Positions 1-17,947 of a stretch of 64,000 bases of DNA are shown one piece after another. The DNA comes from Mesorhizobium loti. GTDB taxonomy: Bacteria > Pseudomonadota > Alphaproteobacteria > Rhizobiales > Rhizobiaceae. Position numbers and translations under genes: made by a program. Numbering within the stretch: the stretch's first letter is position 1; each line of letters opens with the position of its first letter. The DNA is taken from the NCBI GenBank assembly GCA_014189435.1, contig CP050293.1, forward strand, positions 6,329,001 to 6,393,000, in the 5' to 3' direction. Under the pieces are notes generated by a model. That model was not told the DNA's origin. It saw only the letters and a list, made by a program, of their open reading frames with translations, and did no database searches.

Positions 1-2
1 GC

Positions 3-3000
3 CGCATCGTCAACCCGGACCTGATGATCGGCGGCTACGCCTATCTCAACGTCGAGAACTACAACTCCAACCAGTTCACATCGGCCACGCTCGGCGCCGA
101 GGCGATCACCTCGCATTTCGATGCGCATGTGAATGTCTATCTGCCGATCAAGGGCGATTCGACCGATCACTCGACCAGCTCGACCCTGTCGATGGTCAGC
201 AACCAGCTGATGGAGCAGATCTCGGTCCTCGATCACCGCGACTACGCGGCGTGGGGCATCGAAGGCGAGATCGGCGCGCAGGTGCCGATCAACCTGCCCG
301 ACAAGCATTCGCTGCGGCTGGATATCGGCGGCTATCACTTCGAGGATCCGCACGGCAACGACCACAGCGTCACCGGCGCCAAGGCCGGCTTCGAATACAC
401 GATCGGCGATGTCTTCGGCAGTGGTACTGAACTGGTTCTGGCCGGCGAAGTCCGCAACGACAATCGTGACGACACCCAGTTCGCCGGCAGCGTGCGGCTG
501 AACATCCCGTTCAACCCGGGCCATGGCTCGGACACGACCGCGGCCATCAGCGAGGCGGACCCGGTCTATCCAGTCAGCGAGGGCCTGCGCAAGCGCGTCA
601 ACGAACGGGTGCGCGGCGATATCGGCGTCCGGATCCAGTCGCAGGAACTCACCGGCGGCACGACGACGCGCATTGCCATCAACGCGGCCACCAATGCGGC
701 CTTCGGCAAATTCTACTTCGCCGATGGCGGCCTGGCCGGTGCGGGTACGCAGGCCGACCCGACGACGCTGGACGACGCCGTCACCAAAGCCGGCAGCGGC
801 GGCTTTGTGGTGGCGCTTGGCGGCAACGGCAATCTGACGACCGGCGGCGTGACGCTTGCCAATGGCCAGACTGTCATTGGCGGCGGCGAAAGCGTCACCG
901 CCAAGCTTTTCGGCGGCGGCACCAGCACCTTCAACCTGGGCGGCAGCGACGGCACGATCCAGGGCACCAACGTCGCCAACCCCGTCATCACGCTGGGCAA
1001 TGGCAACACGCTCAACGGCATCACCGTCACCGGCGGCGCCGACGGCATTTTGGGCAACAACATCACCGGCGCGACGCTGACCAATGTCACGGTCACCGGT
1101 GCGGGCGGCAACGGCGCCGACTTCACCGGCACCTCGACCGGCATCGCCGGTTCCAATTTCACCGCCACCGGCAACGGCCTCGACGGCCTGCACATCGAAG
1201 GCGATGGTACCTACAATTTCACCGGCACGACGTTGCTGCAGGGCAATCTCGACGACGGTCTCGATATCACCGGCAAGGGCACCTACACCTTCGCCATCGT
1301 CAATGCGAAGGACAATGCCGACCGCGGCATCACCGTGCAGGGCACGTCGACCGGCGGCACCTTCACCACCACCGGCGGCACGGTATCGGGCAATGGCGGC
1401 ACCGCGGTCTTCATCGACCCGATCACCGCGCATGTGGTGCTCGATTCGATCAGCCAGAGCGGCGGCACGTCGGGCGTCGTGCTCGAGAATGTTTCGGGTA
1501 GCTTCACCGTCAACGGTGCGACGACGATCTCGAACACGACGGGACCGGCGATCGCCATTTCGAATTCGCCGGCAGCGATCCGCTTCGGCGACGTCGCCAT
1601 CTCGGCACCCGGCGGCGACGGCATATCGTTTGCCGGCGTCAATGCGGCGGTGGTCGCCGGCAACATCGTCATTTCCGGCCTGGGTGTCGGCACCGGCCTC
1701 GACTTCTCCGGCAGCAAAACCAATTTCACCGCGCAGTCGCTCAACATCACCGGCAGCGGTGCGGCCGGCTCGATCGGCATCGACCTGACTTCGCCGAGTG
1801 CTGGCGGGGCAACGATCGTCATCACCAATGGCGGCGCGATCGCCGGTGTCGACACCGGCGTGCGCTTCGGCATAGCGGGTTCGCTCGCCAATTCGGCCAA
1901 TGCCGAGTTCAGCTTCGGCGGCGGTTCCATTGCCGGCGTCACCGCTTCGCTCGACGCGCGCGGCCTCAACCAGACGCTCGGCCACTATGCTTTCGGCTCG
2001 ACCACGTTCAGCGGTGCGCAGCTGTTCGACGTGCAGAATGTCATCTTCGTCGGCGCCTCGGCGATGGGCTCAGGCACCGGCTCCTCGCTGCTGGACCTGG
2101 CCTCGATCGCGACCGCCGATGCCAACACCGACGCGGACGCGATCTTCGTGCTGGTCAATCGCGGCACGGCCATCGACGACACCGACGGCTTCTCGCTGAC
2201 CGCCGGGCAGACGCTGGCCTCGTTCGGCAATGGGCGGACCTTTTCGCTCGGCGGTGTTCCGGTCAATGTCACCGGCGACAATGTCGAGCACGATGTGGCG
2301 ATCTCGGACGGCGGCGGCGCGGCGACGCTCACCAGTTCAGCCGGCGCGGACACCGTCACGCTGGCCAACAACAGCTCGCTGCTCGACGTCAACGTCTCGA
2401 ACGCCAATCCAGGCGGCGGCACCGGCATCCACGGCAACAACGTCACCGGCGTGACGATAAGCGGCGTCAATGTCAGCGGAGCGGGCCTGGACGGGTTGCT
2501 GTTTGAAGGCGCCAGCAACGTCTCGGCCAACAATGTGACCTCGACGGGCAATGCCAGCGACGGCCTGCATATCGAAGGCGACGGCAGCTATGCCTTCACC
2601 GGCACGACGACGCTGTCGGACAACGGCAGCGGTCTGCTCATAGACGGCAACGGGACATACGCATTCCAGACGCTGAACGCGTCCGACAATTCCGGCGCCG
2701 GCATCAGCGTCCTCTCCACCACCGGCACATTCAGCACCACCGCCGGCACGATCTCCGGCAATGGCGCGGTCGCCGTCGCCGTGCTCGGCGCCAAGATCGA
2801 CGTGACGCTGACCAGCTTGACGCAGGACGGCGGCCTGTTCGGCGCGGCGTTCGCAGGCGTGTCGGGAAATTTCGCCGTTTCCGGCGCAACGACGGTCAGC
2901 AACACCTCGATCCTCGGCCTCGGGATCGCCGACAGCACCGCCGATTTCACGTTCGGAGCCGTCGACATCTCGGACATCACCGCCCTGGGCGGCACCGGTA

Positions 3001-6000
3001 TCAGGGTCCAGAATTCCGACGGCGCGGTCACTTTCGGCGGGCCGGTCACGCTGACTCATATCTACAGCGAGGGCATCCTCGCCAACCACAATGCCGGCAC
3101 GCTCACCTTCAGCGGACCGGTCAGCATGACCGATCCGGGCGACGGCATCTGGCTGGAAGACAACACCGGCGCCGTTTCGTTCAGCGGCGCCGTCACCATC
3201 GACCAGCCGGCCGGAAGCGGCATCGACGTCGTTGGCAGCAACGGCACGATCAGCTTCGGCGACATCGATATCACTGGCCTGTGCAACTGCTCCACCGCGC
3301 TCGACCTGTCGGGCAGCACCTCGACCTTCACCGCCGCCACGCTTGACGTCAGCGGTAGTTCCGGCGCCTCCTCGATCGGCATCGACCTGTCCGGCACCAA
3401 TGGCGGCTCGGTGACCATCGGCAGCGGCGTCATCACCGGTGTCGACACCGGCGTCCAGATGGGCACCAACGGCCTGGCCGGCACCACCGCCAACACGACG
3501 TTCTCGTTCGGCGCGGCCGGCGGCGCGTCGATATCAGGCGTCACCGCGTCGCTCGACATGCGCGGCCTGTCGCCGGGCAGCGGCACCTATGCCTTCAACA
3601 CCACGGTGCTGAACGGTCCGCAGCTGTTCGACATTGCCAACGTTATCTACGTCGGTGCCATCAGCACCAACGCCGGTGACGGCTCGACCGTCAACGACCT
3701 TATCAATGCCACCGCGGCGGACGCGCTGGCGGCCCCTGCCAACACGATCTTCGTCCTGGTCAACACCGGGGCCGGAAGCATCGATACCGATGGCGACGGC
3801 TTTACCCTTGCCGACGGCCAGTCGATCGTCTCCTTCGCCAATGGCGCTTCGGTGAACCTGGGCGGGCCGCCCGCCAATGTCACCGGCACGAATGTTGTAG
3901 CCGGCGCGACGCAGGCCGATCCCTTCGGCAATGGCGGCGCGACGCTCAACAATTCGGCTGGCAACACCATCGACCTGGCCAATGGCAATGTCGTCGAAAA
4001 CCTTACTGTCAGCAGCTCCGGCTTTGCGATCGACGGATCGGGCAGCGCCGGCTCGACTATCAACGGGGTGACGATCAGCGCCGCTACGATCGGCCTTATG
4101 CTCGACGGCACGACCGGTACGGTCACGGCCAACAATCTGAACATCCAGAGCGCCAGCCAAACCGGCATCGCGATTATCGGTTCGAGCGCGACCTTCAATT
4201 TCACCGGCAACACCAAGATCACCAACGCCAGCAATGTCGGGCTGATCGCCACCAATTTCGACGGCAGCGCCAGCTTCGACGACCTCGATATTATCGGCGG
4301 TGGCATCGGCGTCGGCATTGTCGGTGGCTCGAGCGGAACCTTGACCTTCGGGACAGGGAGTTCCATCGCCGGCACGAGCAGCAACGCCTTCTCCATCACC
4401 AGCTCCACGCCCAACGTCACCTATAACGGCACCATCAGTCAGACCGCTGCCGCAAGCGCGGTGAGAATCACCACCATGACCGGTGGCACCGCAACGTTCG
4501 GCGGCAAGATCACCGCCAATACGGGTGCGGCCAATGCGATCGACCTGAGCAACAACACTTCCACTGCTATAGCGTTCAATGGCGGCCTGATCATCAACAC
4601 GACCTCCGGCATCGGGCTGAACGCCACCAACGTCAGCACGCTGGGTATCTCATCGGCCGCAACCAACACAATCACCACCGCGACCGGCCAGGCCATCAAT
4701 ATGGTCGGGCTCGATGTCGCCGCGGGCGGGATCTCGTTCGACAGCATCACCACGGGAGTTGTCACCGCTCAGAATGCGTTGCGCTTTGACACCATGGGCG
4801 GTGGGGCCGTCTCCCTCGGAGACGTTACGATCGGCGGTGCGGCCAGTGATGCCATTCACGCCACGAGCGCCGTGAATCACTTCACATTCGACTCGATCAA
4901 GATCGATGGAGCAGGCGGCGACGGCGTCAATCTCGTCGGCGGCAGCATAGGCACCGTGGACATAGGTTCCGTTGATATTGATGGCGTGACAGGCAATGGT
5001 ATCGAGATTCAGAATGGCGTCGACCACAATGTGACCATTGGCGGAGGCACCATTGGCGCAACCACTCCTGCCGGTGGCGCGGCCATACGCATCGATGGTC
5101 AAGCGGCGGCAAGTACAATTACGCTGACCAATCTGGCGATTACGGCGGGCGCTGAGGGGTTGGCCATCTCCAACTCGACCGGCACGGTCAAGATGGTCGG
5201 CGGCACCATCACCAATTCCGGCAGCGGCGACGGCGTCGTCGTCTCCGGCGGCACCGCGACTATTACGGTGTCGGCTGCCATCTCCAGTTCGGCTGGCTCC
5301 CCGGGCACGGCGGTCAAGGTCGACGGCATCACCGGCGGTTCGGCGACCTTCAGCGGCAGCGTCACCTCGACCGGCACCGGCAATCTCTTCAGCATCGGCC
5401 AGACGACGGCACCGACCGGCGGCGCGATCAGCTTCACCGGTTCGGCGCTGACGGCGACGGGCGGTGGTGGAGCGGTTGTTGTCGGCCTTGCCGGCACGGC
5501 CAATTTGAATGTTGCCTCCCCGCTGTCGATCACCAATGCCACGACCACCGGCCTGGTCGTCGCCAATGTCGCCAGCACCGCATCGGCGACCTTCGGAGCG
5601 GTTACGGTGACGGGCGCCGGCGCCGACGGCATCGGCATCGGCAATAATGCCGGCGCCGTCACCTTCGGCACCACCAGCGTGACGATGGGCTCGACGGTCG
5701 GTTCGGCCGGCATCAACTTCGCCCTCACCAACGCCGACGTGACCTTCGGCACGACGAATGTGACGCTCGGCGCGGGCGCCAGCCAGACCGGCATCGATTT
5801 CAGCGGCTCGTCGACGACCGCCGATTTCGGCCTGACCACGATCACCGGCACGAATGCGCTGACCTCGCGCGGCATCGATCTGTCTTCGACCACGGGCAAC
5901 AAGGTCATCACCTTCCTGCGCGGCTCCGAGATCAACACTGTCGGCATCGGCGTCGACCTCTCGTCCGGCCTCACCACGGCGACATCGGCCCAGGCCGACT

Positions 6001-9000
6001 TCACCTTCGGCGATGGCGATTCGACCGACGGGCGGCAATCGACCATCAACATCACGGCGCCCGGCGGTTTCACCGTCAACACGGTCGGGCTCGATTCGAC
6101 GAAGGGCCACTATGATTTCGACGATGTGAAGTTCCCCTTCGGCAGCGCCAATCTGGAAACCGCGCCCGGTTCGGTCACCCTGGTCTCGCAGATAGGCGGC
6201 TTCATTCTCGCCGGCACGACCGGCAATCTCAGCATGGGCGTCAACACCATATCGCTCGCCGCCGCCGATGCGCTGACCGGCGCGCAGAACTTCGCCTTCG
6301 TCGGTTCGATCAATCTCGGCGCCACCGCCTTCACGCTCGATTCGGGACAGACCATTGCCGGCTTCGGCAATGGCAGCGTCGTTTCGACCGGCACGATCCA
6401 GCCCGCCAATGTCGATGGCAATCTCGGCGCGACCGGTGGCAACATCACCGGCACCGCGGCCGTGGTTACCGGCACGGGCGACTTCATGCATCTGCTCGGC
6501 GACAATGCCGTTCGCAACACCGCCTTCGACTTCAGCGGCGCCACCGGTGCTGCCTTCCTCGTCGACCAGGGTGCGGGCGGTTTCGCCAACACCAGCGGCA
6601 TCACCATCGAAGGCGTGACCATCACCAATGTCGCGGTGGGCCAGACCGCAGTCAAGGTCGTCGGGCTCGACAGCACCCTGTCGGTCATCAACAACAACAT
6701 CAACGTTGCCGGCACGCTGCTCGACGTCAATGGCGGCACCGGCACGATCACCGTATCGCGCGGCGTCCTGCCCTACAGCGCGACGCCGGGAACACTGACC
6801 GGCGGCGGCATCAACATCGCCAACCGCACCGGCGGCTCGGTCACCTTCACAGACCAGGTGACGATCACCGGCGGCAACGGCGTCTCGATCTCGGGCGGCA
6901 CCGCCGGCGGCGCCGTCAATTTCAACGGCGGCCTCGACATCACGACGTCCCTCGCCACTGGCCTCAGCCTTTCGGGACTGAATGTCCTGACCGTCGCCAA
7001 TGCCGGCTCGACGACGATCAACGCGACGGGCCAGACGGCGCTGTCGCTGCAAGGCACACTCGGCGCCGGCGGCGTCAACTTCGACAGCATCACCTCGACC
7101 AACGCAGCCGCACAGGGCGTGCTGATCAGCGGCGCCAGCGGCGGCGCGATCGATCTCGACGCGGTCAGCGTCACGGCCTCGGGCGGCGCCGGCATCGAGA
7201 TCCTCAATTCGACCGGCAGTGGCTATACGTTCGGCAACACGACGATCGACAATTCGACCAGCGCTGGAGGCGGCGCCAACATCCAGAATGCGGCGGGCAT
7301 CACGTCGGTTACCTTCGACGGCACGCTTGATGTCAAAACGTCCACCGGCACGGGTTTCCGCGTCGTCGGCGGCGCCACGCCGGCCAACACCAGCGTCAGC
7401 TTCACCGGTGTCGGGGCAAAGTCCGTCGTCGCATCGGCCGGCACTGCCGTCGATATCACATCGGCCAATGTCAATGGCACCTTGACCTCGACCACCGCTA
7501 CCTTCGCCGCCGGCAACGGCATCAATTTGCAGAACCTCACCGGCACGCTCGTCCTTGGCGGCGGCACGCTGACCAACACCGGTTCGGGCGCTGCTTTCAA
7601 TCTGAGTGGTGGCAGCGCGGTCATCTCCTATGCCGGCACAATTGCCAGCAACGGCACGGGTGCCGCGGCTTCGATCCAGGCGCTGGCCGGTGGCTCGGTG
7701 GTGCTGTCGGGCAATTTGACGGACGGGTTAATCGGGGACGGCGGCCAGATCGTCGTTGCCAACATCAACAGCGGCGTGGCGGCCAGCGTCACCTTCTCCG
7801 GTGCTGTCAAGATCGATTCAGGCGCAACCGACGCCGTCAGCCTGATCAGCAATCCCAACGGGACCATCGATTTCAGCAATGGCGGCCTGGTTATCAAGAC
7901 CAGTTCCGGGCAGGGCTTCAACGCCGCTGGCGGCGGTACCATCAGCGTCGGTGCACTCCTCGCCGACAACAGCATCACAACGACGGGCGGCGGCATCGCG
8001 TTGCACCTCAATACCGTTGTGGTCGGCGCTGGCGGCATGAGTTTCGACGGTGTCTCGACCACCGGTGTAACGACGGGCGACGGCATTGTGCTGACCAACG
8101 TTGGTGGACCAGGCGTCATCAATCTCGGCACCGTCGACCTGCAAGGCATCACCGGTACCGGTGTGTTCGTCAGCGGCACGCTTGGCGCGTCGGTGAATTT
8201 CGGCAGCCTGAACATTGGGCTCGGCGGGCCAAACGCCGTTGGCCTCAGCCTCAACGGCGCTACCATCAATGCGGCCATCACGGCCAATGATTTCCACGTC
8301 GACGGCCACGGCAACACCGGCACGATCGCCGTCGACCTGCGCGGCGCCGGTGGCAGCGGTCAGACGGTGCGGCTCGGAGACACCGTGGCGCTCGCCGGCA
8401 ATGATTCGACTATTACCGGCGTCGGCACCGGCGTGTTCCTCGACAGCGCGACCAATCTCACCTTCACCTATGGCGACGGCGAATCGAACGACGACCAGGG
8501 TTCGACCGTCATCGCCAATGTCGGCATCGACGCGACGAGCGCGCCGACAAACGGCACCTATAATTTCAAAGACGTCAACTTCCAGTCCAACCCTGGCAAC
8601 GGCTTCGGCCTCGGCAAGATCTACTTCGTTGACAGCAATGGTGCTGTCGGTGGTGGAAACGGTTCCGGTAGCGACGGCGGCAATCCGATGACGCTTGCCA
8701 CCGCCGAATTGCTGGCCGGCCCCGACGACATCATCGTCCTCATCAACAACGGCACCGCGATCACGGCGGCAGGGGGCGACAATACGCTGACGTTGCAAGC
8801 AGGCGAACAGGTGCGCGGCTTCGGCAATGGTGCGATCAACCTCGATCTGACTGTGCCCAATCCGATCAAACTGGCCAGCAATACGATATCGATCGCCCCG
8901 GTCGGCAGTGGCGCGGCGACGCTGACGACAAATGCCGGCAACAATGTCATCACGCTCGGCAGTCAGAACAACATCATCGACGGCTTCATCCTCGACGGTG

Positions 9001-12000
9001 CCGCGAGCGCAGCGCGCGGCATCAAGGACAATGGCGCGGGTGCCACAGGCACCAAGATTAGCAACATGACGATCGGCAACTTCGCCGCCGCCGGCGTCGA
9101 GATTACCCCGTCGTTCAACACCACTATCAACAATGTGACATTCGTCGGCAATGCGTCGGACGTCATCGTCAACGCGCTCAACACCACCATCACCAACGTC
9201 TTCAGCACCGGCGCCACCGGCATCGCCTTCGATATCCGCAACACAACCGGCACGACGACGCTGACCAACCTCAACGTCACCACGGCGGCATCCGGCACCG
9301 GTATCGTCTTCGGCGGTGCATCCGGCCCGCAAGGCACGATCATCGGCACCAATGTCGATGTCACGGGCGGCGCGGGCGGCGGTATCAAGGTTACCGGCGG
9401 CAACGCTATCATCGGGTTCGATGCGGCGAGCTTTGTCGGCGTCCCCGACACGTCGAGCGGCACGGCGGTCACGATAACGGGCCGCAGTGGCGGCAGCTTC
9501 GGCTTTGCCGGGTCGGTCGTGGCGAATGGCACGGCGAGCGGCATCAGCGTTTCCGGCGCGGCGGTGGCCAACACGGTCAGCTTCACCGGCGCGGTCGGCC
9601 TCGGTACGTTCTCGACGCTGACCGGCACCGCGGTCTCGATCGACAACAACGGCACGGCTTCGACCGTCAGCTTCTCCAACCTCGGTATCGTCACCAGCGG
9701 CACCACCGGCTTCTTCGCCAGCGATGGCGGCACGGTCAACGTGACGACGGGCACGGTGAACTCCACTGGCGCACAGGCGGTGGACTTGTTGAATGTCGCA
9801 GCCGGTATTGCCTTTACGTCGACTACATCGACGGGTGGTGAATATAACGTTAGCGCATCCAACGTCACTGGCACCGTCGCCCTTGGTTCCGGCGCGCTGA
9901 GCGGCGCCACGAGCGTTGCATTGATCGTGAGCGGCGGCACGACCGCAGTCAGCTATTCCGGTAGCGTCACCAAATCGGACGGTACGGGCTTGGCTGTCGC
10001 CGTCGCCAACCGGCTTGTCGGGGCGGGTCTGGTTTCCCTGAGCGGCAATCTGACGGTGGACACCTCCGGCGTAGGCATAGCCATTGACAACAATGCCGGC
10101 GGCAGCGTGACGCTGTCGGGTGCGTCCAACAGCTTGACCGGCACCGGCACCGGCATAGCCATCACCAACAACACCGGGGGCACCTACACTGTCAGCGGCA
10201 CGAGCTACGACATCAACCTCACCGGTGCGGGCATTGGCGTCAACCTTGCGGGCAACAGCAGCCCGGTGACAATGAACTTCAGCGGCGGAGGGTTGAAGAT
10301 CGCCACCGCCACGGGCGCAGGCTTCAGCGCCACCGGCGCGGGTACGGTCAGCGTGACCGGCGCCAGCAATTCCATCACGACGACGAGCGGCATCGCGATG
10401 AACCTGCAAGGCATCACCGTCGCCGGCAGCCTGAACTTCGCCACGACCAACAAGGGCGCCGGCGGCACCAGCGCCGTGGTCATGAACGGCGTTGCCGGCA
10501 TCGGGTCGGTCAATCTCGGCACCGGGTCGCTCGCTGGCGGCAGCGCGGCAACGATCCTCATCGGCGACGGCGCCGGCGGCGCCAACACCGGCGGCACGGC
10601 GGGCCTTACCTATGCGGGCGGCATCAACGGCGGAACCGGACGAGCCATCGACATCCAGGACCGCATGGCTGGCGCGCAGAACATAACCCTGTCGGGCAAC
10701 ATCTCGCACATTGTGTCGGGCCAGACCGGCATCTTCCTCGCCGACAACGCCGCCGGCACCATCACCTTCTCGGGTGGGACGAAGACGATCAGCACGGTGA
10801 GTGCAACGGCTGTCAGCATCGCAAACACCGGCGCGAGCGTTGTTTTCAGTGGCAGCGGCCTGAACATCAACACCCAGTCGGGAACCGGCCTCGATATTTC
10901 CGGCACCGGCACGGTGACGATCAGCGGCGGCCTCAACGCCGTCACCACTACAACCGGAACCGCCTTCGCCAATCTGGGCGGCAGCGCCACCATCACCAGC
11001 GACGCGGCGCTGACGACCGGCGGTGCGGGACGGGTGGTCGACATCCAGAACCGCACGGCCAACAACGTCACGCTGCTCGGCAATGTCATCAACATGGGAC
11101 CCAACGCGCTCGGCCTGCGCGTCCAGAACGTGTCCGGCGGCACCATTACTTTCTCAGGCGCGAAGATGTTGACCACCGGCGCCAACACCGCCGTCAACTT
11201 GAACAGCAACACCGGCGGCACGATCAACTTCACCAGTGGCGGCATGACCATCAGCACCACCAGCGGCACCGGCTTCAGCGCCACCGGCGGCGGCACGGTG
11301 ACGGTGCAGGGCATCGTCAACAGCATTGCGTCCACCACCGGCACGGCGCTCAACGTCGTCAACACGACGATCGGTGCGAGCGGGCTGACGTTCCAGAGCA
11401 TTGCGTCCAATGGTGCAGCCAATGGCATCGTGCTCAACAATACGGGCTCGGGCGGCTTGACGGTGACCGGCACCGGCGCGACGGCGGGCAGCGGCGGCAC
11501 GATCCAGAACTCGACCGGCGACGGCGTCAGCCTGACTTCGACACAGAATGTCAGCCTGACCAACATGAACATCACCGGCTCGCTGGGCAACGGCATCTTC
11601 GGCAATGGCGTGAACGGCCTGGTGCTGAACCGTGACACCGTGTCCGGCAGCGGCAATTCGACGACTGGCAACGGCGAGGGCAACATCTACCTCTTCGAAT
11701 TGACCGGCGACGCGACGCACCTGACGACGTTCGACAACCTCACGGTCAGCAATGCCTACGTCCATAACGTGTTCATCCAGAACACCGGCGGTACCTTGGC
11801 CGACCTGGTGGTGACCAACAGCACCTTCTCCAACAACGGCGCCTCGACGGTTGCGGGCGATCAGTTCGAGATCGTCCTGACCACCGGCGGCCTCGCCGGA
11901 ACGCCGACCGCGACGGTTCACGCAACGCACAACACCTTTAGCGGCAACCTGTCGGCACCGGCGACGTTCACCGCAACGGGCTTCGCGGGCTCAGTTGACG

Positions 12001-12743
12001 ACGGCACGCTCAACGTCCATCTCGGCGACGGCACCGCCGGCGGCCTGAACACGTTCGACACCAACAATTCGGGCATTACGCTGTCGGCTACCGGTTCCAG
12101 CACGCTCAACTTCGACGTGAACAACAACCTCGTCACGAACAACCGCGCGGTCGGTATAGCCGTCAATCACTTCGGCACCGCGACCGTGACGGGCTTCCTG
12201 CGCAACACGACCGTCGGCACGCAGGGTGTCGCGGGTTCGGGAGCGCAGATCGGCAACGGCATCGACATTCACGACGAGTCCACCAGCGGCACCATGACGC
12301 TGAGCGTCACCAACAACATCGTGCAGAGCGTGGGCGATGGGGCCGGAAGCGGCTTCGAGGGCATCCTCGTTCAGTCGGGCAACGGCGCCCAGAATTCGGC
12401 GAGCACCCTCAATATCACGCTGACAGGCAATTTGATCCGCGACATCCTCGATGACCGGGGACTGTACATCAACAATTTCAATACCGCTGGGGCCAGCGTC
12501 ATCAATGCTCTCGTGAGCGGCAACACCTTCTCGAATGCGAATGCCAGCGGCGCCAACACCACCGTGCGAATCGGCGGCGCGCCTGGCGGGTCTGACCATG
12601 TCAATGTCACGCAGGCCAATGCGAATGCCCTCGCTACGGTGAACGGGCTCACCGCCAGCGGCGCGCCCGGCAACACGATGCGCGTCGACACCAATGTCTT
12701 CTTCAATCAAGTCGCGCCGGTTCTGCCGCCGCCCACGCCGTGA
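3..12743 (+). CDS. Giant inverse-autotransporter-like surface protein with beta-helix passenger (5' end outside window)
   Basis: The frame is open from base 3 and more than 4,240 residues are visible; the true start, signal peptide and first barrel strands lie upstream. Residues 1-165 have the look of an inverse-autotransporter (intimin/invasin) outer-membrane barrel: alternating amphipathic strands such as LGAEAITSHFDAHVNVYLPI and a closing strand ending LNIPFNP. A basic linker (RKRVNERVRGDIGVRIQ) follows. The rest, to the Pro-rich end VLPPPTP, is a Gly/Thr/Asn/Val-rich array typical of right-handed parallel beta-helices. A larger cassette, with IYFVD- or FYFADGG-like, IIVLINNGTA-like and GQTLASFGNG-like segments, recurs near nt 702, 1984, 3586, 6107 and 8560. 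The only cysteines I noticed form a Cys-x-Cys at about nt 3290. By family analogy the barrel would export the C-terminal passenger to the cell surface, probably as an adhesin; the function is inferred. Confidence 0.85.
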   Translation, partial: RIVNPDLMIGGYAYLNVENYNSNQFTSATLGAEAITSHFDAHVNVYLPIKGDSTDHSTSSTLSMVSNQLMEQISVLDHRDYAAWGIEGEIGAQVPINLPDKHSLRLDIGGYHFEDPHGNDHSVTGAKAGFEYTIGDVFGSGTELVLAGEVRNDNRDDTQFAGSVRLNIPFNPGHGSDTTAAISEADPVYPVSEGLRKRVNERVRGDIGVRIQSQELTGGTTTRIAINAATNAAFGKFYFADGGLAGAGTQADPTTLDDAVTKAGSGGFVVALGGNGNLTTGGVTLANGQTVIGGGESVTAKLFGGGTSTFNLGGSDGTIQGTNVANPVITLGNGNTLNGITVTGGADGILGNNITGATLTNVTVTGAGGNGADFTGTSTGIAGSNFTATGNGLDGLHIEGDGTYNFTGTTLLQGNLDDGLDITGKGTYTFAIVNAKDNADRGITVQGTSTGGTFTTTGGTVSGNGGTAVFIDPITAHVVLDSISQSGGTSGVVLENVSGSFTVNGATTISNTTGPAIAISNSPAAIRFGDVAISAPGGDGISFAGVNAAVVAGNIVISGLGVGTGLDFSGSKTNFTAQSLNITGSGAAGSIGIDLTSPSAGGATIVITNGGAIAGVDTGVRFGIAGSLANSANAEFSFGGGSIAGVTASLDARGLNQTLGHYAFGSTTFSGAQLFDVQNVIFVGASAMGSGTGSSLLDLASIATADANTDADAIFVLVNRGTAIDDTDGFSLTAGQTLASFGNGRTFSLGGVPVNVTGDNVEHDVAISDGGGAATLTSSAGADTVTLANNSSLLDVNVSNANPGGGTGIHGNNVTGVTISGVNVSGAGLDGLLFEGASNVSANNVTSTGNASDGLHIEGDGSYAFTGTTTLSDNGSGLLIDGNGTYAFQTLNASDNSGAGISVLSTTGTFSTTAGTISGNGAVAVAVLGAKIDVTLTSLTQDGGLFGAAFAGVSGNFAVSGATTVSNTSILGLGIADSTADFTFGAVDISDITALGGTGIRVQNSDGAVTFGGPVTLTHIYSEGILANHNAGTLTFSGPVSMTDPGDGIWLEDNTGAVSFSGAVTIDQPAGSGIDVVGSNGTISFGDIDITGLCNCSTALDLSGSTSTFTAATLDVSGSSGASSIGIDLSGTNGGSVTIGSGVITGVDTGVQMGTNGLAGTTANTTFSFGAAGGASISGVTASLDMRGLSPGSGTYAFNTTVLNGPQLFDIANVIYVGAISTNAGDGSTVNDLINATAADALAAPANTIFVLVNTGAGSIDTDGDGFTLADGQSIVSFANGASVNLGGPPANVTGTNVVAGATQADPFGNGGATLNNSAGNTIDLANGNVVENLTVSSSGFAIDGSGSAGSTINGVTISAATIGLMLDGTTGTVTANNLNIQSASQTGIAIIGSSATFNFTGNTKITNASNVGLIATNFDGSASFDDLDIIGGGIGVGIVGGSSGTLTFGTGSSIAGTSSNAFSITSSTPNVTYNGTISQTAAASAVRITTMTGGTATFGGKITANTGAANAIDLSNNTSTAIAFNGGLIINTTSGIGLNATNVSTLGISSAATNTITTATGQAINMVGLDVAAGGISFDSITTGVVTAQNALRFDTMGGGAVSLGDVTIGGAASDAIHATSAVNHFTFDSIKIDGAGGDGVNLVGGSIGTVDIGSVDIDGVTGNGIEIQNGVDHNVTIGGGTIGATTPAGGAAIRIDGQAAASTITLTNLAITAGAEGLAISNSTGTVKMVGGTITNSGSGDGVVVSGGTATITVSAAISSSAGSPGTAVKVDGITGGSATFSGSVTSTGTGNLFSIGQTTAPTGGAISFTGSALTATGGGGAVVVGLAGTANLNVASPLSITNATTTGLVVANVASTASATFGAVTVTGAGADGIGIGNNAGAVTFGTTSVTMGSTVGSAGINFALTNADVTFGTTNVTLGAGASQTGIDFSGSSTTADFGLTTITGTNALTSRGIDLSSTTGNKVITFLRGSEINTVGIGVDLSSGLTTATSAQADFTFGDGDSTDGRQSTINITAPGGFTVNTVGLDSTKGHYDFDDVKFPFGSANLETAPGSVTLVSQIGGFILAGTTGNLSMGVNTISLAAADALTGAQNFAFVGSINLGATAFTLDSGQTIAGFGNGSVVSTGTIQPANVDGNLGATGGNITGTAAVVTGTGDFMHLLGDNAVRNTAFDFSGATGAAFLVDQGAGGFANTSGITIEGVTITNVAVGQTAVKVVGLDSTLSVINNNINVAGTLLDVNGGTGTITVSRGVLPYSATPGTLTGGGINIANRTGGSVTFTDQVTITGGNGVSISGGTAGGAVNFNGGLDITTSLATGLSLSGLNVLTVANAGSTTINATGQTALSLQGTLGAGGVNFDSITSTNAAAQGVLISGASGGAIDLDAVSVTASGGAGIEILNSTGSGYTFGNTTIDNSTSAGGGANIQNAAGITSVTFDGTLDVKTSTGTGFRVVGGATPANTSVSFTGVGAKSVVASAGTAVDITSANVNGTLTSTTATFAAGNGINLQNLTGTLVLGGGTLTNTGSGAAFNLSGGSAVISYAGTIASNGTGAAASIQALAGGSVVLSGNLTDGLIGDGGQIVVANINSGVAASVTFSGAVKIDSGATDAVSLISNPNGTIDFSNGGLVIKTSSGQGFNAAGGGTISVGALLADNSITTTGGGIALHLNTVVVGAGGMSFDGVSTTGVTTGDGIVLTNVGGPGVINLGTVDLQGITGTGVFVSGTLGASVNFGSLNIGLGGPNAVGLSLNGATINAAITANDFHVDGHGNTGTIAVDLRGAGGSGQTVRLGDTVALAGNDSTITGVGTGVFLDSATNLTFTYGDGESNDDQGSTVIANVGIDATSAPTNGTYNFKDVNFQSNPGNGFGLGKIYFVDSNGAVGGGNGSGSDGGNPMTLATAELLAGPDDIIVLINNGTAITAAGGDNTLTLQAGEQVRGFGNGAINLDLTVPNPIKLASNTISIAPVGSGAATLTTNAGNNVITLGSQNNIIDGFILDGAASAARGIKDNGAGATGTKISNMTIGNFAAAGVEITPSFNTTINNVTFVGNASDVIVNALNTTITNVFSTGATGIAFDIRNTTGTTTLTNLNVTTAASGTGIVFGGASGPQGTIIGTNVDVTGGAGGGIKVTGGNAIIGFDAASFVGVPDTSSGTAVTITGRSGGSFGFAGSVVANGTASGISVSGAAVANTVSFTGAVGLGTFSTLTGTAVSIDNNGTASTVSFSNLGIVTSGTTGFFASDGGTVNVTTGTVNSTGAQAVDLLNVAAGIAFTSTTSTGGEYNVSASNVTGTVALGSGALSGATSVALIVSGGTTAVSYSGSVTKSDGTGLAVAVANRLVGAGLVSLSGNLTVDTSGVGIAIDNNAGGSVTLSGASNSLTGTGTGIAITNNTGGTYTVSGTSYDINLTGAGIGVNLAGNSSPVTMNFSGGGLKIATATGAGFSATGAGTVSVTGASNSITTTSGIAMNLQGITVAGSLNFATTNKGAGGTSAVVMNGVAGIGSVNLGTGSLAGGSAATILIGDGAGGANTGGTAGLTYAGGINGGTGRAIDIQDRMAGAQNITLSGNISHIVSGQTGIFLADNAAGTITFSGGTKTISTVSATAVSIANTGASVVFSGSGLNINTQSGTGLDISGTGTVTISGGLNAVTTTTGTAFANLGGSATITSDAALTTGGAGRVVDIQNRTANNVTLLGNVINMGPNALGLRVQNVSGGTITFSGAKMLTTGANTAVNLNSNTGGTINFTSGGMTISTTSGTGFSATGGGTVTVQGIVNSIASTTGTALNVVNTTIGASGLTFQSIASNGAANGIVLNNTGSGGLTVTGTGATAGSGGTIQNSTGDGVSLTSTQNVSLTNMNITGSLGNGIFGNGVNGLVLNRDTVSGSGNSTTGNGEGNIYLFELTGDATHLTTFDNLTVSNAYVHNVFIQNTGGTLADLVVTNSTFSNNGASTVAGDQFEIVLTTGGLAGTPTATVHATHNTFSGNLSAPATFTATGFAGSVDDGTLNVHLGDGTAGGLNTFDTNNSGITLSATGSSTLNFDVNNNLVTNNRAVGIAVNHFGTATVTGFLRNTTVGTQGVAGSGAQIGNGIDIHDESTSGTMTLSVTNNIVQSVGDGAGSGFEGILVQSGNGAQNSASTLNITLTGNLIRDILDDRGLYINNFNTAGASVINALVSGNTFSNANASGANTTVRIGGAPGGSDHVNVTQANANALATVNGLTASGAPGNTMRVDTNVFFNQVAPVLPPPTP

Positions 12744-12886: not shown

Positions 12887-13393
12887 ATGGGCACGCCTTT
12901 CATAGGTGAACTCAAAGTTATTTCTTGGAATTTCGCGCCGAAGGGCTGGGCGTTCTGCAACGGGCAGCTACTGCCGATAAATCAAAATCAGGCTCTATTT
13001 TCGCTTCTTGGTACAATGTATGGCGGTGACGGCAGGGTTAATTTTGCTCTGCCTGATCTTCGAAGCAGAGTTCCAATATACTCTGGCGGTTCCATTGGAG
13101 CGGTCGTCGGCGGTAGCGGTGGAGAAGAGTTTCACACGCTGACGCAGGGCGAAATGCCGGCTCACAACCATCTGATCAATGCGTCACAGACGCAAGGCGA
13201 CAAGAACACGGCCTCCGGCAATGTACTGGCGCGCGAAGTGGGTGTCCTCTACGCAGCCTATGCCAATCTGACGACATTGAACCCTGGATCGATCTCCAGC
13301 GTCGGCGGCAGCAACCCGCACGAAAACCGTCAGCCTTTTCTGACGCTGAACATCGTCATCGCCCTGCAAGGCATCTTCCCGTCGCAGAACTAG
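12887..13393 (+). CDS. Phage tail-collar (MdpB-type) protein, first of three
   Basis: This 168-residue protein matches the tail-collar / microcystin-dependent protein family. It has an N-terminal PFIGELKVISWNFAPKGWAF block, then CNGQLLPI, LLGTMYGGDG and FALPDLRSRVP, a PAHNH motif near the middle, and a C-terminal LNIVIALQGIFPSQN. There is no signal peptide. It is the first of three tandem paralogues, with the second starting 11 bp downstream. Its 5' part is visibly more AT-rich than the paralogues, which may mean separate ancestry. The biochemical role of stand-alone collar proteins in bacteria is not established. Association with a surface or tail-like assembly is inferred from the collar fold and from the giant surface protein upstream. 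Confidence 0.9.
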   Translation: MGTPFIGELKVISWNFAPKGWAFCNGQLLPINQNQALFSLLGTMYGGDGRVNFALPDLRSRVPIYSGGSIGAVVGGSGGEEFHTLTQGEMPAHNHLINASQTQGDKNTASGNVLAREVGVLYAAYANLTTLNPGSISSVGGSNPHENRQPFLTLNIVIALQGIFPSQN

Positions 13394-13404
13394 AGGAAGC
13401 GGCA

Positions 13405-13926
13405 ATGAGCTCACCTTATGTTGGCGAGATTCGCATGTTTGGCGGCAATTTTGCGCCGGCTGGCTGGGCTTTCTGCGATGGCAGCTTGCTGCCGATATCC
13501 GAAAACGAGACGCTGTTCAATTTGATCGGGACGACCTATGGCGGCGATGGCCAGGAGACGTTCGCCCTGCCCAACCTCAGCGGCCGCATTCCTATCCACG
13601 CGGGCCAGGGGCCGGGGATGAGTCAGACCTATACGATCGGCGAGGCTGCCGGCGTCGAATCCGTGACGCTGACCACAAACCAGATCGCGGCGCACGGTCA
13701 TGCCCTGATGGCGTCGTCGAACACGGCGTCCGACCCCAATCCCGCGGGCAACATCCTGGCAACCTCCCCGACGATCTCGGCCTATGTCATCGACGTCGCG
13801 GGGCCTGCACTTGCCGGCAATTCATTGACCACCGCTGGTGGCAGCACCCCGCACGACAATTTCATGCCCTATCTGTGCGTCAATTTCATCATCTCGTTGT
13901 TCGGGATTTTCCCAACGCAGACCTAA
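13405..13926 (+). CDS. Phage tail-collar (MdpB-type) protein, second of three
   Basis: This 173-residue paralogue of its neighbours begins with PYVGEIRMFGGNFAPAGWAF and continues CDGSLLPISENETLFNLIGT, YGGDGQETFALPNLSGRIP and a central AAHGHA. It ends CVNFIISLFGIFPTQT. A GAGGAAGCGGCA leader gives a good ribosome site 8-10 bases before the ATG. The 10-11 bp gaps on both sides indicate co-transcription with the other two collar genes. Like them it lacks a secretion signal, so any export would need a dedicated route or assembly into a larger particle. Confidence 0.9.
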   Translation: MSSPYVGEIRMFGGNFAPAGWAFCDGSLLPISENETLFNLIGTTYGGDGQETFALPNLSGRIPIHAGQGPGMSQTYTIGEAAGVESVTLTTNQIAAHGHALMASSNTASDPNPAGNILATSPTISAYVIDVAGPALAGNSLTTAGGSTPHDNFMPYLCVNFIISLFGIFPTQT

Positions 13927-13936
13927 GAGGACTGTC

Positions 13937-14464
13937 ATGGCTGACCCGTTCGTCGCCGAAATTCGCATCTTTGGATTCAATTTCGCGCCCACGGGTTGGG
14001 CGACCTGCGATGGTCAGTTGCTGCCCCTCTCGCAAAACACGGCGCTGTTCTCCTTGCTCGGCACCACCTATGGCGGCGATGGCAAGTCGACTTTCGCGCT
14101 GCCAAATTTGGCCGGGTCGGCGCCGATGCATCCGGGGGCTTCAGTGGGCGGAAGCGACCATTTTCTGGGCGAGACCGGCGGCAGCACGGCGGTGAACCTG
14201 ATCAGCTCCGAAATGCCGATCCATAACCACAATATTTTTGCTTCCACCGAAAACGGGACGCTCAAGGCTCCGTCGCCAACGGAATTTCTTGGCCGCTCCA
14301 AGGCCGGCACGATCTATCAATCGAATACCGCAAACAATCTGGCGCTGATGAACGTTCAGGCCGTTTCGCTTACCGGCAGTTCACTGCCCCACAACAATCT
14401 GCAGCCCTACCTGGCGCTTACATTCTGCATCGCATTGCAAGGCGTTTTTCCGCCAAGAGGCTGA
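13937..14464 (+). CDS. Phage tail-collar (MdpB-type) protein, third of three
   Basis: This is a 175-residue paralogue. I chose ATG 13937 because it directly follows an AAGAGG ribosome site and gives the family N-terminus ADPFVAEIRIFGFNFAPTGW. An open frame extends back to 13838 but overlaps the preceding gene. Conserved blocks are CDGQLLPLSQNTALFSLLGT, YGGDGKSTFALPNLAGSAP, PIHNHN and the end LALTFCIALQGVFPPRG. It is the last of the collar triplet and is followed after 27 bp by a beta-propeller gene on the same strand. Three slightly different collar proteins may form a hetero-oligomer, which is inference only. Confidence 0.9.
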   Translation: MADPFVAEIRIFGFNFAPTGWATCDGQLLPLSQNTALFSLLGTTYGGDGKSTFALPNLAGSAPMHPGASVGGSDHFLGETGGSTAVNLISSEMPIHNHNIFASTENGTLKAPSPTEFLGRSKAGTIYQSNTANNLALMNVQAVSLTGSSLPHNNLQPYLALTFCIALQGVFPPRG

Positions 14465-14491
14465 CACCAGGCAACAAGCAGGATCGGGACC

Positions 14492-15811
14492 ATGGCCAAG
14501 AAAGCAGCAACGAAGTCCGAAGCGCCAAGCACGAAGGCCGCGCCGACTGTCGCGAAGAGCACGACTGGTGCCCGCTCGCGGCGATCCAGCGTCCCGCCCG
14601 TTTTCCAGAGCATGCCGGCCGGCGCGTCCTTCTTCGAACTGTCGCGGCTGATGGTGGTGGCCATCGATTCGGCGGCCGGGCGCCTGATCCAGAAGGCGCA
14701 GACCGCGCCGAACGGACCATGGCCCGCGGCCTGGTCGATCATCGCTCCCGGCACCTTCGTGCAGATGACGGCCGGCATCACCAAGGACGGAAGGGTGGCT
14801 GTCGTCGCCCAGCTGTCAGGCAGCCCCAATCTGTTCTTCATCACCGAGGACGCCAACCAGGTCGGCCCGATCGACAAATGGACCGCGCCGATGAACATCG
14901 GCGCGCCGCCCGGCGCCGCCAGCTACTACGGTTTTTCGATGGCGCGCGATGTCGATGGCCGCATCGAACTCTTCGTGCTCGACAATCAGGCCCGCATCTG
15001 GTGGATCTACCAGAATCCGGACCAGATCGTGCAGGTGCAGAAAACCGTCACGCCGCCGGGCACCTCCACGCCCATCGTCGTCACCGTCGACGTGCTCGTC
15101 CCGCCCGCCAAGATGTGGAGCGACTGGCTGCAGATTCCCGGCGGACTGGTGTCGATCTCGGCGATACGCCAGGCCGACGGGACCATTGCGCTGTTCGGCA
15201 TCAATTCAGGCGCCAATCTCTATCGCTGCCAGCAGAATAAGGCGCAGGCGCTGAAGGTTGCAGACTGGACTGGCTGGGTGCAGATCGACACTCCAGGCAC
15301 CGGTGGTTTCGCCGTCATGGCGCCGGTTGTCGGTCCGCTGGGTGCCACCAATCTGTTCGCCTTGACGAAGGGCGGCCAGGCCCTGCACACGCGCCAGAAG
15401 CCCGCCGGCACCGACAGCTGGACGCCTTGGGCGATGACCGAGTACAGCAGGGTCGGCAAGTATACGCTGGCAGCCGGCATCGAAGGCGATGGCGACATCA
15501 TGCTTGTCGCGTCCGACCAGCAGCATGTTCACTCGTTCAACGCTCAATATGACGCTGCCACGCAGAACTGGTCGGGATGGCGCGACTTCAACGCTTCCAG
15601 CTCCAACACGCGGCTGATGCTCGATTACAATGCCGACGGCCGCCTCGCACTGTTCAGCCTGTTGAGCGGCGCCGCCGGCAACACCAACTCGCTGTGGACG
15701 CTGTCGCAGATGAGCATCGACAGCACCGAGTGGGAGTATTCCTGGGTGTCGCTTGCCGACAGCAACGTCAACCAGGCCATCGTGGTGCGCGACCTGACGC
15801 CGCCGGTCTGA
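14492..15811 (+). CDS. Lys/Ala-rich N-terminus plus beta-propeller (PLL/tectonin-like) protein
   Basis: Residues 1-35 are a basic, low-complexity tail rich in Lys, Ala, Ser and Thr. The remainder of the 439 residues shows repeating blades of about 50-60 residues. These carry W-x2-W and DGRIELFVLD / DGTIALFGIN / DGRLALFSLL type motifs, as in PLL-like or tectonin-like lectin propellers. No signal peptide is apparent. It follows the three tail-collar genes closely on the same strand and is probably in their operon. Carbohydrate binding is plausible for this fold but cannot be shown from the sequence alone. Confidence 0.75.
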   Translation: MAKKAATKSEAPSTKAAPTVAKSTTGARSRRSSVPPVFQSMPAGASFFELSRLMVVAIDSAAGRLIQKAQTAPNGPWPAAWSIIAPGTFVQMTAGITKDGRVAVVAQLSGSPNLFFITEDANQVGPIDKWTAPMNIGAPPGAASYYGFSMARDVDGRIELFVLDNQARIWWIYQNPDQIVQVQKTVTPPGTSTPIVVTVDVLVPPAKMWSDWLQIPGGLVSISAIRQADGTIALFGINSGANLYRCQQNKAQALKVADWTGWVQIDTPGTGGFAVMAPVVGPLGATNLFALTKGGQALHTRQKPAGTDSWTPWAMTEYSRVGKYTLAAGIEGDGDIMLVASDQQHVHSFNAQYDAATQNWSGWRDFNASSSNTRLMLDYNADGRLALFSLLSGAAGNTNSLWTLSQMSIDSTEWEYSWVSLADSNVNQAIVVRDLTPPV

Positions 15812-15814
15812 CGG

Positions 15815-16366
15815 TTGATTTCCGGTAGCGTGGCAGAAGCGAAGCAGGCACATCCCCGTCCAGTGTGGGCCCGGTCTGACAAGGCCGGGCTCGGCTTCCG
15901 TGCAGCGACGGATGCCGATATGCCCTTCCTGTCGCGCCTCTATGCCTCGACGCGCATGGATGAACTCGCCGTGACGGCGTGGACCGACGCGCAGAAGGCC
16001 GGCTTCCTCGACATGCAGTTCCAGGCGCAGCACGCGCATTACCGAAAACACTATCCCGAGGCCGACTGGCTGGTGGTGGAACGCGATCGCCAAGACATCG
16101 GCCGGCTCTATATCGAGCGCTGGCCAAGCCAGCACCGTATCATCGACATCGCCTTCCTGCCGGAACATCGCCGCAAGGGCTGCGGCACGGCACTGCTGCG
16201 CGACCTCGTCGACGAGGCATGGTTAGCCGGCAAATCAGCTTCGATCCACGTCGAGAAGCATAATCCGGCGAGGCAGCTCTATGTCGAACTCGGCTTCGCG
16301 GTGGTCGAGGACAAGGGCGTCTACGATCTGATGGCTTGTGCGCCGCCTGTCGATAGCAATCCATGA
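15815..16366 (+). CDS. GNAT family N-acetyltransferase
   Basis: The GNAT fold is evident: LGFRAATDADMPFLSRLYAS at the N-terminus, the acetyl-CoA signature IDIAFLPEHRRKGCGTALL in the middle, and NPARQLYVELGFAVVED near the end. The frame opens with TTG 15815, and GTG 15830 is an alternative start. The 3-4 bp gap after the propeller gene suggests translational coupling and membership of the collar/propeller operon. The substrate is unknown. Modification of a co-encoded surface protein is possible but speculative. Confidence 0.85.
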   Translation: MISGSVAEAKQAHPRPVWARSDKAGLGFRAATDADMPFLSRLYASTRMDELAVTAWTDAQKAGFLDMQFQAQHAHYRKHYPEADWLVVERDRQDIGRLYIERWPSQHRIIDIAFLPEHRRKGCGTALLRDLVDEAWLAGKSASIHVEKHNPARQLYVELGFAVVEDKGVYDLMACAPPVDSNP

Positions 16367-16376
16367 TCGTCGGTTG

Positions 16377-16551: not shown

Positions 16552-16616
16552 CGACGGCAAAGATTGTCGCATTGGCCCTGTCATAGTGCGGCAGGCCTGC
16601 ATCCCAAAACCGAACG

Positions 16617-16886
16617 CTAATTAAACACCGCCTCGTATAGCCGCCCCGCCGCATCGGCCGCGACCGGTACGATGAAGATCTCGTGGGAGCCGCTTGTGCC
16701 GGTGAAAAGATAGGTCGCCTGCGGCAGCGCGATTTCGCGCGGGCCCCTGAACAGCAGCGAGAAACCGCCGCCCGGGCGCGGGCTGGCGGCGATGGGGTTG
16801 ACCGCGCTCAGCTCGAGCGGGATCTGCTGGCCGCCGGCTTCGATGGTGAAGGTTTGCCCCTGTTCGAAATCCGATACCGACGCCAT
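16617..16886 (-). CDS. DUF6916 family protein
   Basis: This 89-residue protein starts MASVSDFEQGQTFTIE and contains the family pattern of a beta-rich core, SLLFRGP followed by LPQATYLF, and an ending IFIVPV...YEAVFN. I preferred ATG 16886 over the longer frame to 17003 because it has a GAGG ribosome site and gives the family N-terminus. The function is unknown. It lies near the tail-collar genes but on the opposite strand, separated by a palindromic element, so a functional link is a guess from position. Confidence 0.7.
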   Translation of the reverse strand: MASVSDFEQGQTFTIEAGGQQIPLELSAVNPIAASPRPGGGFSLLFRGPREIALPQATYLFTGTSGSHEIFIVPVAADAAGRLYEAVFN

Positions 16887-17155
16887 CCCGTTTGCCTCAA
16901 TTTGTCCGCTGCCGGCGGCACTGTCGCCGCTTCGCCGTAAGCTGTCCAGAGGCGGGCAGGCTGCCGGGCTGTGCCGCAAGACAATTCGTCGCCGCAAACC
17001 CAAAATACAGCACCGCTTGTCCTTTTATGCACGCAAGAGACGCTGTAGTACTTTGTTCCTGCGCGGGATTCCTTTCGATCCAAGCTCAGTGCAAACAACA
17101 ACAGATCCCGGCTTCGGGACCATTGGCGGCCGGATCGGCTTGCGGGAGACGGACG

Positions 17156-17947
17156 ATGGCGGATGCAAAGACGGATGGGGCGAGCGATGCGATGCCGCTG
17201 TTCTATTCCAGGCCGGAGGCGCTCAACCCGGCGCGGCACGGCTCACTTGGCCTGACCGCGCGCGCCGACTTCGGCTTTGCCCGCTCGGCGCACGCCATTC
17301 CGGTGGTGGCGTCGGAAATGCCGGCGGCGATGCGCTCCTACCCGATCGTCTTCATCGGCGCCGCCAAGGCGCCGGTGATCATCACCGGCGTGCGCCAGGA
17401 CGAAAACCTGTTCGTCGACGCCGACGGCAAATGGATCGGGCCGCATTACATCCCCGCCTATGTCCGACGCTATCCCTTCATCATGGCCGAAGACCCGAAG
17501 GCGGCCGGCCGGCTGACGCTGTGCGTCGACCGCGCCAGCGACCGCGTCGTCGACCAGTTGCTGGCGCCGTTCCGCGACGAAAAGATCGCGCCTTTCTTCA
17601 CCGGCAGCGAGCCGACCGAAGCGACCAGGCAGGCGCTCGCCTTCTGCAACCAGTTCCAGATCGATTTCAACGCCACCCGCGCGATGATCGAAAAGATCGA
17701 CGCGCACGGCCTGTTCGCACCGCGCCAGAGCAAGGTGACGCTGGAAGGCGGCGAAGTGCTCAACCTCACCGACTTCCAGGTGATCGACGAGCCGGCCTTC
17801 AACAAACTCAGCGACGAGGCGTTTCTCGACCTCAGGAAATCAGGCGCGCTCGGCATGCTCTACTGCCACCTCGCCTCGACCAACAGCTGGACCTCGCTGG
17901 TGCACCAGGCATCGCTGCGGAAGGCTGGTGGCGCGAAGAGCGCCTGA
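17156..17947 (+). CDS. SapC family protein
   Basis: This 263-residue protein matches the SapC family: PLFYSRPEALNPARHGSLGL at the N-terminus, YPIVFIGAAKAPVIITGVRQ, ENLFVDADGKWIGPHYIPAY and VRRYPFIM. ATG 17156 follows GGGAGA and gives the usual short N-terminus; the open frame upstream to 16892 is not supported. The family is named for an S-layer gene-cluster product of Campylobacter, and its biochemical role is unresolved. It has no signal peptide or membrane segment. It is divergent from DUF6916, and the shared upstream region may hold both promoters. Confidence 0.85.
   Translation: MADAKTDGASDAMPLFYSRPEALNPARHGSLGLTARADFGFARSAHAIPVVASEMPAAMRSYPIVFIGAAKAPVIITGVRQDENLFVDADGKWIGPHYIPAYVRRYPFIMAEDPKAAGRLTLCVDRASDRVVDQLLAPFRDEKIAPFFTGSEPTEATRQALAFCNQFQIDFNATRAMIEKIDAHGLFAPRQSKVTLEGGEVLNLTDFQVIDEPAFNKLSDEAFLDLRKSGALGMLYCHLASTNSWTSLVHQASLRKAGGAKSA

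Follow-up and report, generated by a model that had tools for sequence, protein, structure and literature searches.

A 64,000-nt stretch of Mesorhizobium loti DNA (contig CP050293.1, positions 6,329,001 to 6,393,000; hereafter the window), taken from a genome of 8.33 Mb, encodes three consecutive phage-type tail collar proteins of family PF07484, here called C1, C2 and C3, behind the gene of a giant surface protein and close to genes for a GNAT acetyltransferase and a DUF6916 protein. Comparison with other genomes revealed this gene set to be real, widespread and specific. We give an even chance to the reading that the locus encodes a two-part surface device, in which a collar heterotrimer would form the head and the giant protein the stalk.

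The collar genes lie on the + strand at 12887..13393 (C1, 168 amino acids, PF07484 E 6.4e-26), 13405..13926 (C2, 173 amino acids, E 2.2e-28) and 13937..14464 (C3, 175 amino acids, E 7.4e-26). Their PF07484 scores are 90-98 bits against a cut-off of 24, each falls into the clade of its name, and the HxH motif reads AHNH, AHGH and IHNH, respectively. Two core partners follow, namely the GNAT acetyltransferase at 15815..16366 on the + strand (PF00583 E 7.6e-11; 183 amino acids counted from a TTG, the true start being uncertain) and the DUF6916 protein, probably at 16617..16886 on the - strand (PF21880 E 2.2e-22; 89 amino acids from the likely start).

Conservation of the gene set

The named loci are the best 80 of at least 593 stretches matching a C2 collar alignment in a profile search of genome contigs; because they were picked as best C2 matches, the share of triplets among them cannot be read as a frequency in the population. 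Exactly three tandem collar open reading frames (ORFs) were present in 79 of the 80, the remaining locus (L083) showing two before its contig ends. The loci span eight phyla, with 38 from Pseudomonadota, 13 from Acidobacteriota, 11 from Bacteroidota, 6 from Chloroflexota, 5 from Actinomycetota, 4 from Verrucomicrobiota, 2 from Myxococcota and 1 from Deinococcota. An earlier note on this DNA, made from the sequence alone, had looked to the Hyphomicrobiales for conservation of the neighbourhood; with eight phyla in one sample of 80, the unit is not confined to that group.

Among the 54 named loci flanked on either side by 5 kb or more of sequence (full context), GNAT was found in 51, DUF6916 in 49 and both in 49. 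Neither profile matched any of 20 control regions; these were drawn from 15 genomes belonging to the family and phylum samples described below, other genomes than those with named loci. The co-occurrence of collar triplets with DUF6916 that the earlier note had envisaged thus holds, whereas that with a beta-propeller gene does not (7/80 loci). Clustering of all neighbours within 8 kb of the 80 loci returned the collars in 80, GNAT in 71, DUF6916 in 61 and a single cluster of homologous giants in 48; it revealed no further family in more than 10 loci, the minor families not being annotated one by one. Scattering of the genes among relatives, or their occurrence independently of the giant and of each other, was named in the earlier note as speaking against a joint system; neither was observed for the set of collars, GNAT, DUF6916 and giant.

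These data bear on the reading of the locus as a remnant left by a phage, tailocin or contractile injection system, or as cargo carried by one, that has no function as a unit. The collars do belong to phage tail families (PHROG tail; 36-38% identity to phage minor tail proteins). However, no neighbour family besides collars, GNAT, DUF6916 and giants reached more than 10 of the 80 loci, and under the same limit for minor families the clustering yielded no sheath, tube or baseplate genes. HxH is retained in 235 of 237 collars, and one collar of each clade is retained across eight phyla. Moreover, the related genes of phages mostly stand alone (315 places in 280 records), compared with three collar places in each of 15 listed plasmid records. 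A remnant is highly improbable on these grounds, and a phage remnant was rejected for want of any phage-type neighbour family in more than 10 of the 80 loci.

In the family sample of 199 genomes, a collar match was obtained in 44, of which 12 contained a tight triplet by our own reading of the listed positions. The 11 family triplet loci other than the window contained GNAT in 10 cases and DUF6916 in 6 by blastp, L044 being without both; one further DUF6916 protein, in L041, was recognised by eye. In the phylum sample of 398 genomes, 100 contained a collar and 44 a DUF6916 protein. Among the matches listed for that sample, a tight triplet was evident in 24 genomes, 21 of them with DUF6916; a collar was present in 43 of the 44 genomes with DUF6916 versus 57 of the 354 others, and 49 of 52 DUF6916 matches lay within 5 kb of a listed collar. 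These values imply that DUF6916 is a collar-associated protein. The three matches away from collars were those in G073 (45 kb away) and G266 and one of two in G378. In G266, which is of the same genus as the window, locus L147 has kept DUF6916 and SapC and gave no collar match, possibly reflecting loss of the module.

Single-collar versions accompanied by GNAT and/or DUF6916 also occur (L140-L146, L148, L149) and suggest a homotrimeric relative of the three-gene form. Of plasmid records, 72 were matched, including the 15 mentioned above; in three of them 'tail fiber protein' is annotated three times, next to GNAT, hypothetical or other proteins, with SapC in Aminobacter.

Three collar kinds and their assembly

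Clades were defined on trees by choosing the splits in best agreement with gene position. In the tree of 252 collars, which left out L083 and short rows, gene position changed 17 times as compared with a mean of 119 after shuffling of the labels. One each of C1, C2 and C3 was found in 81 of the 82 complete triplets, arranged as 1-2-3 in 76, as 2-1-3 in 3 and as 2-3-1 in 2; the order of the collars can change, yet no kind is lost. The clades separated perfectly in the phylum-sample tree, from which the reordered loci L090, L104, L118, L132 and L133, the window and the family rows had been left out (the tree of 252 collars includes them), and 7 of 8 phylum-sample triplets had one collar of each clade. 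The pairwise distance matrices of C1, C2 and C3 correlated with r 0.82-0.84, and those of GNAT and DUF6916 with r 0.59 (Mantel values, which ignore shared ancestry). Contig L178 from IMG/VR carries two complete collar triplets in tandem, each consisting of one C1, one C2 and one C3 by tree. For two further IMG/VR triplet contigs, L182 and L184, a viral origin was rejected, since by eye the adjacent ORFs resemble secreted proteins of bacteria.

The HxH motif is the metal-binding motif of T4 gp12. The two of the 237 collars in which it was not seen are cut by contig ends, and it was present in all nine single collars checked. Relatives of the collars in the PDB are phage tail fibres, namely the T4 short tail fibre gp12 (1ocy, E 3.6e-5) and a phage long tail fibre (8kec, E 7.8e-10), and these relatives are trimeric. 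They share the homologous collar domain with the bacterial proteins, and HxH is aligned in 8kec. A gp12-like HxH is a feature of the bacterial collars as a sequence motif, the metal being putative. Unlike the bacterial collars, the gp12 and 8kec fibres are virion parts, each made by one gene as a homotrimer. The mean column entropy of the C2 alignment was ~2.4-2.6 bits in columns 101-130, between HxH and GGSxPH, as against 0.3-0.9 bits in columns 1-60 and 0.7-0.8 bits at the C-terminus.

The closest known counterpart is found in virophage DSLV2, where three consecutive collar proteins form a 1:1:1 heterotrimer according to co-expression, native polyacrylamide gel electrophoresis and electron microscopy, and where the heterotrimer binds Synechococcus cells, with three positional clades and a variable head region (Chu et al. 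2025, PMC12724248, in the parts covered). The bacterial locus resembles it in having three consecutive PF07484 genes of similar size and three positional clades, its 1:1:1 assembly being predicted. It differs in that the virophage triplet is viral and adjoins a minor capsid gene, and in the parts of that paper covered no giant surface protein, GNAT, DUF6916 or bacterial module is named (PMC12724248). By analogy with the DSLV2 heterotrimer, a heterotrimer would be the likely state of the bacterial triplets as well, and we consider this assembly probable. The hetero-oligomer proposed in the earlier note is strongly supported by the three obligate paralogue clades, by natural three-in-one fusions (see below) and by the virophage precedent. 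The three bacterial collars appear to be non-interchangeable parts of one structure.

Other bacterial PF07484 proteins have been described. RhiB of the Rhizobium rhiABC(D) operon, for which a plant interaction was proposed, is, like the window collars, a rhizobial PF07484 protein encoded outside a phage; it differs in being one collar gene among others in a quorum-sensing context, RhiA and RhiC are without a Pfam-A domain, and a giant, GNAT or DUF6916 are not named in the passages covered (PMC13133039). In the acidobacterium Ellin6076, a paralogue group of 'phage tail collar domain protein' bears marks of positive selection, according to the part of the report covered (PMC3174227).

Giant partners and fused chains

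The gene of the window giant (1..12743, + strand; assigned from the open frame of L054, PF11924 and PF13229) begins ~310-350 bp upstream of the window, ATG 24 being internal. Its product is an inverse autotransporter with a right-handed beta-helix passenger. The N-terminus matched the inverse-autotransporter barrel PF11924 with 32.8 bits (cut-off 22.3, E 6.9e-8), a barrel found above cut-off also in three relatives of this giant, and a hydrophobic N-terminus ahead of the barrel was recognised by eye in L054. From ATG 24 on, the sole Pfam match at E <=0.1 was Beta_helix (PF13229), whose 25.9 bits are exactly at the cut-off. The window giant and its three relatives thus resemble the inverse autotransporters intimin and invasin (type Ve) in their barrel. 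Unlike in intimin and invasin, a giant beta-helix passenger and then collar genes follow, and giants of other lineages use RTX, type IX secretion system (T9SS) or Sec-like export instead.

To count giants, long ORFs were scored in the 51 named loci of 17.2-20.6 kb and, in the same way, in the 20 control regions, of 17 kb each; GC-rich DNA can add shadow ORFs to such counts. An ORF of at least 1400 amino acids was present in 45 of these 51 loci versus 1 of the 20 controls; the corresponding counts were 9/11 for the family triplets, 6/8 for the triplets of the phylum sample and 4/9 for loci with a single collar. Upstream of the collars, 41 of the 80 loci have a same-strand ORF of 400 amino acids or more whose end lies within 400 bp of the first collar, and in 18 of those 41 the gap was at most 60 bp (8-58 bp).

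The partner is not one protein family, as the earlier note's single giant might have implied, but comprises several secreted giants. A T9SS tail (Por_Secre_tail) was identified in the L071 giant and RTX repeats in those of L072, L110 and L041; IPTL-CTERM-like, autotransporter-like and further T9SS-like ends were recognised by eye. Of the main-cluster giants having their own start, 26 of 33 showed a hydrophobic N-terminus, export signals being judged here and below by hydropathy and not by a signal-peptide program. Cadherin- or immunoglobulin (Ig)-like repeats were common among the few giants scanned. L043, L092, L132, L182 and L184 have another giant type with a common N-terminal segment around 'YFTD' or similar (by eye).

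Many giants end in a right-handed beta-helix segment, which a profile detected in 42 of the 80 loci and which sits near collar 1 or precedes the secretion tail. The profile was run with the HMMER filters off, since with the filters on even some of its seeds were lost. It also reaches L038, L040, L044 and a 323-amino-acid protein in the single-collar locus L048; on L038, a same-genus relative of the window, it scored 79.7 bits. No match was obtained in the window giant, L036, L037 or L039. In the window, the place of the segment is taken by a divergent C-terminal end (12351..12740, + strand), placed by alignment only. A model of the segment from L087 reached a predicted local distance difference test (pLDDT) value of 90.6; it gave no confident PDB match (best E 0.2, a pectate lyase), and the lack of a Foldseek match is no proof of a new fold. 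A narrower profile of the end segment, A3, matched 2 of the 398 genomes, each time immediately ahead of a collar triplet, and did not detect the window genome; from this pattern, A3 appears specific but insensitive.

In some genomes the collars are fused. Three collars and RTX repeats share one chain in L261 (G145), L262 (G160) and L264 (G324), the L261 chain also having cadherin and Ig-like domains and a serralysin-type C-terminus; in L263 (G492), three collars are joined to a PEP-CTERM tail. L265:6195-7874 is a collar-collar-GNAT fusion with a separate third collar upstream. HxH is kept in the L263 and L265 fusions. Through these chains the triplet is linked with export, with adhesin-like repeats and with GNAT.

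The giant neighbours and fusions bear on the possibility that the collars form a heterotrimeric binding protein that is either soluble or anchored on its own, leaves the cell by lysis or another route and is co-regulated with the giant without ever touching it. It would fit this reading that the collars share no export signal, that some collar loci are without a nearby giant ORF and that the histories of the collars and of GNAT/DUF6916 differ in part (Mantel r 0.14-0.26). The enrichment of giants beside the module (45/51 vs 1/20), the L261 chain, in which three collars are joined to cadherin/RTX parts, and the 8-58 bp between a large upstream ORF and collar 1 in 18 loci count against it, and we regard a binder detached from the giant as quite unlikely.

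The proposed surface device and its setting

In the proposed two-part device, a secreted giant would serve as the stalk; in the window this is the inverse autotransporter, whose right-handed beta-helix passenger has ~4000 residues. C1, C2 and C3 would assemble 1:1:1 into a heterotrimer like the tip of a phage tail fibre, held together by the collar folds and by a putative metal site of six histidines (3 x HxH). This head would dock on the giant, probably at the beta-helix end, and bind its ligand via the hypervariable loops that connect HxH with the C-terminal strand. GNAT and DUF6916 would be dedicated factors for assembly or modification of the collars. The conserved gene set, the three obligate clades, the shared HxH, the giant neighbours and the fusions are computed; the heterotrimer is drawn from likeness to the virophage case, and the extracellular place, docking site, metal, ligand binding and roles of GNAT and DUF6916 are assumed.

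No separate collar carries a credible export signal, whichever route the giant uses: among 239 collar ORFs, taken at full length, a hydrophobic stretch was detected in one, within the long, spurious-looking upstream extension of L094. The surface location of the collars, although our preferred reading, is therefore unproven, and we judge the odds evenly balanced that they lie outside the cell, on the giant. Their lack of export signals would be expected if collars, GNAT and DUF6916 were cytoplasmic and formed a dedicated chaperone complex for folding or export of the giant by any secretion route; window GNAT and DUF6916 are likewise without an export signal by eye, the partners are giants of several export routes, and giant and collars are often tightly spaced. 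Several observations argue against such a complex. The natural triple-collar chains with RTX repeats (one with a serralysin-type C-terminus) or PEP-CTERM look built for export, the relatives of the collars are virion tail proteins, and the loop that links HxH to the last strand is hypervariable, which suits a binding surface better than a chaperone. In addition, a PF07484 protein is contained in the exoproteome of Ruegeria pomeroyi, according to the part of the report covered (PMC4949626). A cytoplasmic chaperone complex is hence unlikely in our estimate.

Apart from the missing export signals, further findings weigh against the two-part device. DUF6916 is missing in 5 of the 54 full-context loci, GNAT also in 3 of those 5. 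The giants belong to several families with differing export, and no ORF of at least 1400 amino acids was found in some triplets of the phylum sample (2/8) and of the family (2/11) and in 5 of 9 single-collar loci. The beta-helix end segment was matched in just 42 of the 80 loci and in 2 of 6 window-type giants (L038, L040). The RTX-fused triple collars are without HxH and also without the variable tip. Among the triplets, L042 fails the three-clade split and is read as 2-1-1, and L156 from the phylum sample does not split into three clades. Finally, collar distances correlate only weakly with those of GNAT and DUF6916 (r 0.14-0.26, Mantel).

Some indications are available for the two core partners. 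The best NCBIfam match of GNAT is rimI, far below cut-off, and Ala or Ser follows the start in 192 of 226 collar N-termini caught by a pattern (13 were not caught); our guess from these sequence features is that GNAT may acetylate the collars. For DUF6916, a small barrel was predicted (pLDDT 93.6) and compared with a PilZ-like barrel; no sequence relative in the PDB, no confident fold match and no paper in the literature searched, with subscription journals and preprints outside its scope, were found. DUF6916 may be a collar-assembly factor.

Regarding the gene layout of the window, the earlier note had placed three collar genes, a beta-propeller gene and the GNAT gene on one strand behind the giant gene, with DUF6916 and SapC nearby, and this was borne out. 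All five genes are on the + strand; C1 starts 143 bp behind the giant gene, and the gaps from C1 through C2, C3 and propeller to GNAT are 11, 10, 27 and 3 bp. The propeller (14492..15811, + strand, 439 amino acids) is homologous to the Photorhabdus PLL/PHL lectins, as revealed by 8 PDB sequences matched with profile A8 (best 6rfz, E 9.8e-31), its Pfam matches being below cut-off only; sugar binding is putative. In contrast to those lectins, it is an extra gene in 7 of 80 collar loci (Mesorhizobium, Stappia, Pseudovibrio). The SapC-family ORF (16892..17947, + strand; PF07277 E 3.4e-61, SapC domain from ~17222) is a lineage-specific neighbour found in 8 of 80. With these counts, propeller and SapC were rejected as core parts. 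The window DUF6916 and propeller are 92% and 90% identical, respectively, to those of Mesorhizobium locus L113.

An NCBIfam search assigned no family to the window collars, propeller or giant. A defence island was rejected, PADLOC giving 0 matches for 6 window proteins (the three collars, propeller, GNAT and DUF6916). Between the GNAT and DUF6916 genes, an imperfect palindrome is located at 16373-16555, with 68-nt arms that are 81% complementary and 47 nt apart, which may be an intergenic repeat element of the rhizobial kind. The fourth collar gene of this genome (L035:9672-10091, G000:C2) stands alone on another contig; it is flanked on both sides by a 351-amino-acid ORF of near-identical start, and this ORF may be a mobile element.

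Taken further, the loci could represent an organelle class in at least eight phyla, in which an obligate heterotrimeric, metal-pinned tail-fibre head with hypervariable receptor loops would cap giant stalks of different secretion systems and be served by GNAT and DUF6916; we hold this tentatively, at somewhat below even odds. No description of such a surface device in bacteria was found in the literature searched. A 'tail fiber protein' annotation need not signal a prophage. If true, a viral receptor-binding head, in the form of an obligate heterotrimer, would have been adopted as a module by giant adhesins throughout much of the bacterial tree, and DUF6916 as well as many non-phage 'tail fiber protein' annotations would gain a role. 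Natural three-chain and single-chain versions of one fold would become available for structural work, and metal-pinned binding heads would be predicted on environmental and symbiotic bacteria.

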